From an uncultured Bacteroidota bacterium (GTDB taxonomy: Bacteria > Bacteroidota > Bacteroidia > Chitinophagales > Chitinophagaceae), in the NCBI GenBank assembly GCA_903887415.1, contig CAISPO010000055.1:1-64000 (forward strand): a DNA stretch of 64,000 nucleotides, read 5' to 3'. Of the stretch, positions 56,060-58,519 are shown piece by piece; within the stretch, counting starts at the first letter, position 1, and each line of letters starts with the position of its first letter. The translations under genes were made by a program, and so were the position numbers. The notes under the pieces are model-generated. The model was given only the letters and a program-made list of their open reading frames with translations, did not search any database and had not been told where the DNA came from.

Positions 56060-57001
56060 ATGAAATTTTATCTCGGAGTAACGAACAATAGTTGGTATAA
56101 CTATTTGAGTACCATAAATCCCGAAGACGTAAACTTTTGGCAGCCTGGTGGTAATCGGGAATTCAAGGTCATACCGTCCATGGCTCCTTTCTTATTTAAG
56201 CTAAAGAGCCCGCTAAATGTGATTGGCGGAGTTGGCTTCTTTTCCAGCTACTCTAATTTGCCATTATCTGTGGCTTGGGAAATATTTGGGAATAGAAACG
56301 GTTGCAAAACTTATGAAGAATTTCGAAGGATTATTGTCAATTATAGAAAAGATAAAGAGAATGTAAATCCTACTATCGGCTGTATAGTGCTTACGAATCC
56401 GCTCTTCTTTAAGAAAAGCGATTGGATTGAAACTCCTTCAAATTGGAGCGGTAGCATCGTTCAGGGTAAATCATATTCAACTGATGAGGAGATAGGGCAA
56501 CAAATATGGGCTCAAGTAAATGTTTTAATTCAAAAATATCTCTCGGGCAATGGACTTGATGAGCAAAAAAGCTTCATTCTTAGCGAACCGGAATCTCCCG
56601 CCTATGGAAATTCAATCTTGCAAAAAGTGAGGAGGGGGCAGGGTGCATTCCGAGTTTTAGTGACTGATACGTATAATAAACGATGCTCGATAACGGGGGA
56701 GAAAACCTTACCGGTACTGGAAGCTGCACACATTAAACCTTACGCTGAGTCTTTGTCGCACGAAGTATCGAACGGAATTCTCCTGAGATCAGATATTCAT
56801 AAGCTGTTTGATTCAGGTTATATGACGATTACCAACGATTTAGTCGTGGAAGTTAGTAACAGAATAAAAGAAGAATTTCACAATGGCAAGGAATACTACC
56901 AATACCATGGGAAAAGCCTCCTTTACATCCCTACGCGAGAGATTGACAAGCCGTCAGCAAAGTATATTGAATGGCATAACAATAATGTTTTCAGACGATA
57001 G
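56060..57001 (+). CDS. HNH endonuclease with N-terminal putative reader domain
   Basis: A 313-residue protein with two regions. Residues about 190-270 are an HNH nuclease: GQGAFRVLVTDTYNKRCSIT, LEAAHIKPYAE (His about 223) and SNGILLRSDIHKLFDSGYMT give the beta-beta-alpha metal site (HNH_2/PF13391-like). The first about 165 residues (FYLGVTNNSWYNYL, DVNFWQPGGNREFKVIPSM, VIGGVGFFSSYSNLPL) resemble the beta-barrel readers of modified bases (PUA/EVE-like), which suggests a modification-dependent restriction enzyme. This is an inference by layout only. It stands alone with a -7 box (TATTTTTG, 56050-56057) just before the ATG. Confidence 0.85.
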   Translation: MKFYLGVTNNSWYNYLSTINPEDVNFWQPGGNREFKVIPSMAPFLFKLKSPLNVIGGVGFFSSYSNLPLSVAWEIFGNRNGCKTYEEFRRIIVNYRKDKENVNPTIGCIVLTNPLFFKKSDWIETPSNWSGSIVQGKSYSTDEEIGQQIWAQVNVLIQKYLSGNGLDEQKSFILSEPESPAYGNSILQKVRRGQGAFRVLVTDTYNKRCSITGEKTLPVLEAAHIKPYAESLSHEVSNGILLRSDIHKLFDSGYMTITNDLVVEVSNRIKEEFHNGKEYYQYHGKSLLYIPTREIDKPSAKYIEWHNNNVFRR

Positions 57002-57192: not shown

Positions 57193-57341
57193 CAATGGAC
57201 CGGCTTACGGGCCGGTACACCTTCGGGAAAACGATACTGCGGTGGCTTGTTGCCATTTGCGAGGGCTTTACCTGTAATGGTTAAGTGATACTGCGAGGGC
57301 TTGAGGCCCTTGGCGAGGGCTCTTAACCATTTTTTGATTTT
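57193..57341 (+). ncRNA. Candidate structured RNA with covarying tandem hairpin units
   Basis: Downstream of a -7 box lies ACCGGC-TTACGG-GCCGGT-type hairpin (57199-57217), then two 35-nt tandem units (57233-57267 and 57287-57321) that share 29 of 35 bases and begin GATACTGCG. Each folds to a 5-bp stem with a 5-nt loop: TGGC-TTGTT-GCCA in unit 1, GGGC-TTGAG-GCCC in unit 2. The U-A to G-C change in the stem is compensatory. Unit 2 is enclosed in a 10-bp stem (AATGGTTAAG 57276-57285 with CTTAACCATT 57322-57331) and followed by a T run, a terminator. No ORF explains the sequence. Strand is inferred from the T run. Confidence 0.5.
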
Positions 57342-57408: not shown

Positions 57409-57433
57409 TATCCCTTGTCATTAATTTTCTAAA

Positions 57434-57468
57434 AATAAAAAAAGAAACAGTTGGGCGTACGTCTCCGG
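57434..57468 (+). repeat. Direct repeat AATAAAAAAAGAAACAGTTG...GTACGTCTC
   Basis: A related copy (AAATAAAAAAGATACAGTTG followed by CGTATGTCTC) is at 59360-59390. Neither copy is coding. Confidence 0.5.
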
Positions 57469-57554
57469 CTACGTACCGTTAGCGATCACATCCATCGAAA
57501 AATGTGGATATCTTATCGCGGTTTTTGTTGGCTATTATTACCGCACAGTCTATC

Positions 57555-57584
57555 TTTAATTATGGCGAATTCGCCATAATTAAA
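57555..57584. promoter_or_regulatory. 30-bp perfect palindrome, putative operator 1
   Basis: TTTAATTATGGCGAA then TTCGCCATAATTAAA is a perfect 30-bp inverted repeat with no spacer, centred on GAATTC. Its centre is 50 bp from that of palindrome 2, and it lies 114 bases before the KilA-N start codon. Confidence 0.75.
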
Positions 57585-57601
57585 TTGAAAAAATCGCTAC
57601 T

Positions 57602-57637
57602 TTTTTTAAATGGGTCGAATTCGACCCATTTAAAAAA
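57602..57637. promoter_or_regulatory. 36-bp perfect palindrome, putative operator 2
   Basis: TTTTTTAAATGGGTCGAA then TTCGACCCATTTAAAAAA is a perfect 36-bp inverted repeat centred on GAATTC. It ends 26 bases before a -7-like TATATTTT (57663-57670) and 61 bases before the KilA-N start. Short GCTA/TAGC flanks extend the symmetry further. Confidence 0.78.
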
Positions 57638-57697
57638 GGAAATAGCAATAGTAACCCGCAAATATATTTTAAAGGAAGGATTCGATAGGTCTAAAAA

Positions 57698-58519
57698 ATG
57701 TGTATGGCTAAAAACAAAACCATAAATGTTCAGGGTTCCGAAATAACCATTATTAAGCATAATAGTGAGGATTTTATTTCTATGACCGACATGATAAAAC
57801 CATTCGGTGATGAATCCATAATCAAAAACTGGCTTCGTAATCGCAACACCGTAGAATTCCTTGGAATTTGGGAGCAGATTTACAACCCCGATTTTAATCC
57901 GGTCGAATTCGACCAGATTAGAAAACAAACGGGACTCAATTCTTTTGTTCTTTCCGCTAAAAAATGGATAGAAAGTGTGAATGCAAAAGGCATAGTGTCC
58001 AGTGCTGGCAGATACGGCGGCACATTTGCGCATCGGGATATCGCCTTCGAATTCGGCTCCTGGCTCAGCCCGGAATTCAAATTATACCTCATAAGAGAAT
58101 TCCAGCGCCTCAAAGAAGATGAGAACGACCGGCTGAAACTGGACTGGAACCTGCAACGCACCCTCTCCAAGATCAACTACCGCATACATACCGATGCCAT
58201 AAAAGAAACACTGGTGCCACCAACTATAACAAAGGCGCAGGCAGGTATGGTATATGCCAGCGAAGCAGACATGCTTAACGTAGCCCTGTTCGGCATCACT
58301 GCAAAGCAATGGCGCGAAGCCAACCCCACAAAAGACGGCAACATCCGCGACTATGCCGAGCTCGAACAATTAGTAGTCCTCACCAACCTCGAAAGTATTA
58401 ATTCAGTACTTGTTCGCCAGCAACTCCCACAAACCGAGCGACTCATGAAACTGAACGAAATCGCCATTACACAAATGAAATCCTTGCTCAACAACAACAA
58501 TCTGAAGAAACTAAAATAA
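57698..58519 (+). CDS. KilA-N domain protein
   Basis: A 273-residue protein with an N-terminal KilA-N DNA-binding domain (about 5-135): EITIIKHNSEDFISMTDMIK, SIIKNWLRNRNTVEFLGIWE, GRYGGTFAHRDIAFEFGSWL and SPEFKLYLIREFQRLKEDE. The C-terminal half is helical, with KETLVPPTITKAQAGMVYAS and a long helix ending in LLNNNNLKKLK, of a kind found in Bacteroidetes KilA-N proteins of unknown role. KilA-N is a phage-type DNA-binding fold. The gene is solitary, with two large perfect palindromes upstream, which suggests autoregulation. The ATG at 57698 precedes a second ATG two codons on. Confidence 0.88.
   Translation: MCMAKNKTINVQGSEITIIKHNSEDFISMTDMIKPFGDESIIKNWLRNRNTVEFLGIWEQIYNPDFNPVEFDQIRKQTGLNSFVLSAKKWIESVNAKGIVSSAGRYGGTFAHRDIAFEFGSWLSPEFKLYLIREFQRLKEDENDRLKLDWNLQRTLSKINYRIHTDAIKETLVPPTITKAQAGMVYASEADMLNVALFGITAKQWREANPTKDGNIRDYAELEQLVVLTNLESINSVLVRQQLPQTERLMKLNEIAITQMKSLLNNNNLKKLK
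57901..57914. promoter_or_regulatory. Intragenic copy of the operator-2 core
   Basis: GGTCGAATTCGACC, the 14-bp core of palindrome 2, lies inside the KilA-N coding sequence (codons for V-E-F-D). It may be a third binding site or coincidence. Confidence 0.35.

Follow-up and report, generated by a model that had tools for sequence, protein, structure and literature searches.

What keeps two long perfect palindromes in front of a single KilA-N gene, and which protein, if any, do they address? The question arises from the window analysed here, a stretch of 64,000 nucleotides from an uncultured Chitinophagaceae bacterium. As the initial annotation described, two spacer-free perfect palindromes, both centred on GAATTC and with their centres 50 bp apart, occupy positions 57555-57584 and 57602-57637. 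Palindrome 1 is 30 bp long with 15-bp arms and reads TTTAA-TTATGG-CGAATTCG-CCATAA-TTAAA (half-site TTATGGC); palindrome 2 is 36 bp long with 18-bp arms (half-site ATGGGTC). They do precede a KilA-N gene, whose start follows palindromes 1 and 2 after 113 and 60 bases, respectively. No other zero-spacer perfect palindrome in the 64-kb window has arms longer than 9 bp. Per window, chance would supply 6e-5 with arms of at least 15 bp and 1e-6 with arms of at least 18 bp, and 100 simulated first-order Markov windows yielded no arm beyond 12 bp, a length reached once. The two palindromes are far beyond chance.

Both palindromes meet a general formula of about 30 letters, TTTAA-N6-CGAATTCG-N6-TTAAA, in which two 12-bp half-sites (TTTAA-N6-C) stand face to face across GAATTC. 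A decayed third site (AAAGGAAGGATTCGATAGGTCTAAA; 57666-57695; repeat family D1, 62%), missed by the initial annotation, lies between palindrome 2 and the KilA-N start codon and overlaps the TATATTTT proposed there. In alignment its counterpart is perfect in genome G020 and near-perfect in G001; the decayed site itself stands outside the scored sites of the upstream and downstream counts given below. Across the bacterium's own genome (4.73 Mb), both window palindromes fit the formula exactly, and a site inside the KilA-N gene fits it with one mismatch. Six other places match with two to three mismatches and are non-palindromic by eye, and a control pattern matched one place. A genome-wide repeat is rejected, since beyond the window sites this genome has no convincing match at up to three mismatches.

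The KilA-N gene (57698-58519, plus strand, start possibly at 57704) encodes 273 amino acids, and KilA-N (PF04383) is its sole Pfam domain (E 7e-23; 80.9 bits against a gathering score of 23.8). PHROG 2657, to which the protein is assigned, is annotated as a transcriptional regulator, and the PADLOC model PDC-S22 matches with an E-value of 1.8e-135. PADLOC ranks the PDC-S22 family as a defence candidate only, and its model reaches beyond the palindrome-bearing clade, as three palindrome-less paralogues match it too, more weakly. The one paper found to name PDC-S22 reports that it co-occurs with other systems in S. suis genomes. NCBIfam holds no match for the protein, and a sequence search of solved structures returned one match (E 0.09), taken as chance. 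A structure predicted for P0001 (pLDDT 85.6, pTM 0.55) places most of the palindrome-encoded residues in a predicted helix, 68-77. The top five solved structures returned for it by Foldseek are all entries of DdrC from Deinococcus radiodurans; these are weak matches (10-13% identity), the best at E 4e-4 and the last at 6e-3, with a query-normalised TM of only 0.26-0.36. DdrC is reported to form dimers and to bind and bridge DNA, with no specificity for sequence (PMC5436757). Further down, at rank 7, comes the APSES protein Mbp1, whose E of 0.16 is not significant.

The conserved member of the system is the site within the gene rather than those upstream. In the window gene this site (57893-57922), which the initial annotation also missed, spans codons 66-75 (FNPVEFDQIR) and is partly decayed, with 13 of 15 pairs; in relatives the palindrome lies in codon register, and both strands read F-(K/N)-x-x-E-F-x-x-(F/I)-K. 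Conservation was measured on those copies in the retrieved loci that spanned 85% or more of a query, which were aligned and scored at residues 66-75; this alignment-based scoring was chosen to avoid selecting for the motif, an earlier motif-filtered count having given 113 segments. Sampling of loci is incomplete because the best 80 of 580 protein-search candidates and 70 loci from a virus-contig search were taken. Among 180 distinct near-full-length protein-sampled genes, the window gene included (best 80 of 580 candidates and others), 178 retain at least 10 of 13 inner pairs and 146 at least 12. The mean of 12.14 inner pairs compares with 7.61 +/- 0.10 under a codon null, for which the same peptides were rewritten 1000 times with the genes' own codon usage; no rewriting brought more than 5 genes to 12 of 13. 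Elsewhere in these genes, 29,693 centres at codon boundaries averaged 3.5 pairs, and 6 of them reached 10. The two genes that lost the site are those of loci L173 and L174, and internal stops occur in 4 of the 180 copies. A wider set, 10 of whose members were found only via the DNA pattern, gave at least 10 of 13 inner pairs in 188 of 190 distinct genes.

Symmetry is kept at the level of individual bases, across amino acid changes and silent positions. Lys67 (AAA) is paired with Phe74 (TTT) in 74 of 75 cases and Asn67 (AAT) with Ile74 (ATT) in 91 of 95; the codon of Pro68 is CCC in 30 of 30 genes with Gly73 and CCT in 9 of 10 with Arg73, the one exception being CCC. Three to four Watson-Crick pair types are found at each symmetric position from 5 to 10, that is, within N6. 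Of 2340 pairing cells, 2186 are Watson-Crick, and the mismatches comprise 39 G-T, 46 A-C and 69 others; the near equality of G-T and A-C points to DNA rather than to an mRNA hairpin. Genes with the site come from records titled as Bacteroidetes, Verrucomicrobia, Nitrospirae, Pseudomonadota, cyanobacterial and archaeal MAGs, all among the best 80 of 580 candidates, and from virus contigs, with the proviso that phylum labels of MAGs may be wrong. The palindrome is absent at the homologous place in three paralogous KilA-N proteins (L030, L423 and L424; 37-39% identity). An origin of the site by insertion of eight codons, which L030 suggests, was rejected, L423 and L424 having the segment without the palindrome. 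The near-universal in-gene copy among close relatives suggests that a DNA-binding protein and its putative target travel together.

The variable part of the KilA-N domain, codons 36-104 (57803-58009, plus strand), co-varies with the N6 of the in-gene site. This was seen among 188 genes compared in pairs matched for C-terminal identity, pairs that are not independent of each other. At C-terminal identities of 0.75-0.85, 57 pairs with the same N6 show identities of 0.91 and 0.88 over residues 36-62 and 78-104, as against 0.49 and 0.55 in 738 pairs whose N6 differs. Pairs with different N6 remain at a steady 0.48-0.51 (residues 36-62) and 0.52-0.59 (residues 78-104) from a C-terminal identity of 0.35 upwards. 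The in-gene N6 bases track module identity, with fourfold sites elsewhere near 0.30. As N6 encodes residues 67-74 of the same domain, the covariation shows a co-inherited cassette, not recognition. Three genomes illustrate the exchange: G000, G001 and G020 have palindromes 1 and 2 in common and a C-terminal half that is mostly alike (mostly at least 90% per 60-base block). G020 departs from the other two just after palindrome 2, until about codon 108, and G000 and G001 diverge mainly from about codon 32 until about codon 108; the flanks beyond the unit are dissimilar. In G001, palindrome 1 has a symmetric one-base insertion in both arms and palindrome 2 has compensatory changes in both arms (both palindromes being orthologous in G001 and G020).

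Upstream copies are rarer and follow another pattern. Within 600 bp upstream, 51 sites were found in 29 of 189 distinct contexts, compared with 3 downstream, one of them seemingly spurious, and none in reversed upstream controls; protein-sampled genes alone give 50 upstream sites in 28 of 179 contexts and the same 3 downstream. This polarity bears out the earlier claim that the palindromes belong with the KilA-N gene. Of the 102 upstream half-sites, 80 fall within the in-gene N6 repertoire; the upstream N6 equals that of the gene itself in 4 of 51 sites, where 3.07 would be expected with owners drawn at random. Neither intact upstream site in the window carries the N6 of the window gene, and all 30 bp of palindrome 1 recur as the in-gene site of G008/L011. 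The same pair of palindromes occurs in G001 and G020 with a spacing of 48 bp, not the 50 bp that the initial annotation had singled out.

Among 99 relatives the formula was matched in 18 genomes and control patterns in none; among 344 genomes of the family it was matched in 42 (a control in 1), and the protein was found in 68. Of the 50 sites in these family genomes, 36 are contained in a KilA-N match, 7 stand no more than 1 kb from one and 7 are elsewhere; 26 of 395 phylum genomes have the pattern (a count of the pattern alone). The initial annotation had held that orthologues with no palindromes upstream, or palindromes scattered genome-wide away from KilA-N genes, would point to ordinary repeats. 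Neither was found in plain form, because relatives have upstream sites and 43 of the 50 family-genome sites lie at KilA-N matches; yet 160 of the 189 upstream contexts are without a detectable site within 600 bp. Its interpretation is thus partly supported. The exact palindrome 1 has no match in plasmids or E. coli genomes and matches 4 virus stretches.

Within the genus, the thiC-thiD gap was read by eye in 30 loci. It holds the KilA-N gene in 4 (G008, G026, G028 and G029), and intact or decayed sites only in G031, G014, G023, G017 and G003; G031 and G028 have different N6 at one comparable place. In G000 the KilA-N gene lies outside this gap. Sites remain in genomes in which no KilA-N gene was found, as in the thiC-thiD gap of G031 and G023. 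Loci L379, L382 and others of the same genus have, again by eye, a small ORF after thiC in place of the KilA-N gene or sites; its product includes GFQEVIYQ and resembles a GxxExxY protein, which would make the gap a possible landing site in general. At the start of one contig, L212 (G371:C18, 25-621) has eight near-identical tandem sites about 75 bp apart, followed by one with a different N6; at the very start of another, L026 in G022 has a 60-bp perfect palindrome, possibly an assembly-end artefact.

The sites are not confined to KilA-N loci. The exact pattern occurs in 118 IMG/VR stretches; removal of in-gene cases by a translation filter and of duplicates left an off-gene set of 73 sites, 8 of them from bacterial loci, and 8 of the 73 are in stretches with KilA-N similarity. 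In 72 strict off-gene sites, 96 of 144 halves belong to the in-gene N6 repertoire, itself 62 of 4096 possible sequences; 37 sites have both halves in the repertoire. The two halves agree in 16 of the strict sites, which are thus symmetric, and differ in the 56 others, which are hybrids. No relative of the KilA-N protein was found in 49 of 50 virus records searched that have an off-gene site, the remaining one giving a weak partial match; the 50 come from an initial 65, the contigs may be fragments, and absence of the gene is not proved because no record has a completeness class of 90% or more. Placed against mechanical ORFs, the 68 sites divide into 28 in co-directional gaps, 18 within ORFs, 16 in convergent gaps, 3 in divergent gaps and 3 at edges, and 10 of the 68 overlap the stop codon of such an ORF. 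One site lies in the variable linker of a phage helicase ORF (L413), and 7 of 7 aligned relatives are without it; no clean insertion, and no clean insertion length, was seen here, the relatives having a different linker that varies in length. At the phage locus L263, decayed versions (L407, L409) and relatives with the gene ending elsewhere (L404, L406, L408) were found, and no clean empty site. Searches for relatives of L276 and L346 returned only themselves, no near-identical phage records to L305 were found, and a hybrid site sought in phages gave weak matches only, among them one between genes of Xanthomonas phage SU1. Virus contigs L276 (1217-1241), L284 (7896-7920) and L313 (12177-12201) have tandem sites that share the TTTAA between them, so that their centres are exactly 24 bp from each other.

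Any explanation has to accommodate what is established, namely the anatomy of the sites, their conservation, their symmetry at the DNA level, the cassette linkage, the upstream polarity and a half-site repertoire common to virus contigs. Judged from sequence, we put at about even the probability that the palindromes are cis-acting recognition sites of this KilA-N family, with module and target inherited together. A protein dimer, or pairs of related proteins, would bind each site with one subunit per half-site, the variable module (residues 36-104) would set the N6 preference, and module and target would be exchanged as one cassette because the site is written into the module's codons. The two intact upstream sites of the window would then be non-cognate or cross-regulatory, left from or aimed at other alleles, rather than simple operators of the protein that the gene encodes today; the virus copies may be sites for host KilA-N proteins, with a role as decoys or sensors, or may be traces of earlier contact. 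Recognition is supported by the in-gene symmetry, the 51:3 polarity, the module linkage, the swap among G000, G001 and G020 and the off-gene N6 repertoire. A further point in favour is the weak match of the predicted model to DdrC, a dimeric DNA-binding protein. Recognition is weakened by the persistence of sites in genomes where no gene was found, by upstream self-N6 at the chance level and by the rarity, unlike operators, of off-gene copies in divergent gaps, where promoters lie (3 of 68), and symmetric changes could also arise by hairpin template switching without selection. More tentatively, the system may be self-addressed, the protein keeping its target palindrome in the codons of its own specificity module so that the two always change together, and the half-sites serving as exchangeable labels across phyla and gene-less phages; in a defence system, the labels on phages would perhaps work as decoys, as passes or as sensors.

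The strongest competitor, which we think somewhat unlikely, is a mobile palindromic element similar to REP sequences or Rickettsia elements, with its main residence in the KilA-N gene and with upstream and virus copies as insertions or scars of a kind that gene ends and variable linkers can tolerate. It would fit the 72 strict off-gene sites, a few of them beside KilA-N sequence and largely drawn from the same half-site repertoire, the failure to find the gene in 49 of 50 virus records, the helicase linker site missing in 7 of 7 relatives, the 10 of 68 sites on stop codons with few in divergent gaps, the tandem sites 24 bp apart in three contigs, and the thiC-thiD copies, which by eye are decaying and, where places can be compared, belong to different alleles. 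It sits poorly with a tiny copy number, the window sites alone being convincing in their own genome, with the position of 43 of 50 family-genome sites inside a KilA-N match or no more than 1 kb from one, and with the absence of any clean insertion length and of a Pfam domain other than KilA-N in the gene; the 51:3 polarity would also be odd under random insertion. The initial annotation had proposed a simple autoregulatory operator array. In such an array the window's own protein would bind both upstream sites through the constant TTTAA and CGAATTCG, whatever the N6, and control its own promoter. This draws support from the upstream polarity, the conservation of the constant bases, the closeness of the sites to the start codon and a DNA-binding type of protein with a PHROG regulator label. 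We nonetheless find it improbable: it leaves unexplained the symmetry of N6, a limited N6 repertoire that follows the module, the many site-less upstream contexts and the in-gene and virus copies. The upstream N6 belongs mostly to other family members, the spacing is unconserved, the most conserved site is in coding sequence, and many virus copies occur where no gene was found.

Perfection might instead be neutral, kept by template switching (quasi-palindrome correction) in the absence of selection or a binding protein. The symmetric insertion and the double changes in G001 resemble such correction events, and the about equal G-T and A-C frequencies agree with them; we nevertheless hold this to be very doubtful, as it accounts neither for presence in 178 of 180 genes from records labelled many phyla nor for the off-gene recurrence of the same N6 set and the absence in three palindrome-less paralogues. 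Least probable of all, and by our estimate very nearly negligible, is an RNA hairpin or transcription terminator. Several off-gene virus copies adjoin terminator-like hairpins by eye; against this, the G-T excess that a selected mRNA hairpin would give is missing (39 against 46 A-C), the stems in the window have no following T run, and no Rfam family reached its gathering score, the four matches being far below it and the best (E 0.0093) a microRNA model.

Recognition sites inherited with their protein would have partial parallels in known systems. Specificity proteins of restriction-modification systems carry a variable target-recognition module between conserved sequence, exchanged as a cassette and tracking a short DNA sequence; in the KilA-N family, unlike in those systems, the gene of the module itself contains that DNA sequence. 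Operators of the gal and lac operons stand inside coding sequence as well as upstream, all with one common sequence, whereas the N6 of the KilA-N sites differs from site to site and mostly matches other alleles. Rickettsia palindromic elements are in-frame palindromes within many unrelated genes of one genus, in contrast to one site fixed in one gene family in records labelled many phyla. REP sequences are likewise short palindromes (20-40 bp) with a gene thought to handle them (RAYT/TnpA-REP) and with copies elsewhere. They differ in being highly repeated per genome, against two perfect sites and an in-gene one here, and in being tied to a tyrosine (HuH) transposase rather than to a KilA-N gene with the key copy in its coding sequence. 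No description of the present sites was found in the open PMC papers searched, none of which combined KilA-N, palindrome and Bacteroidetes or printed any of six site stretches.

A coding-sequence palindrome conserved across records of many phyla, tying residues to silent bases, is unusual. If the site is the target of the protein, it shows a DNA-binding protein changing its specificity yet keeping its own site, and the roughly 60 half-sites, catalogued together with their protein modules, would be material for learning a recognition code. As virus contigs carry the same labels, such recognition, if true, would also offer a direct route to asking what role this uncharacterised defence-candidate family plays.

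Some features of the surrounding DNA are recorded for completeness. The intergenic region that holds the palindromes also has imperfect direct repeats (GATACTGCG..GAGGGCT) at 57233-57321, and part of the leader (57432-57473) recurs at 83% on contig C33. Upstream of the KilA-N gene lies an HNH_2 endonuclease gene (56060-57001), the C-terminal part of which matches PADLOC models for HNH and type II restriction enzymes.
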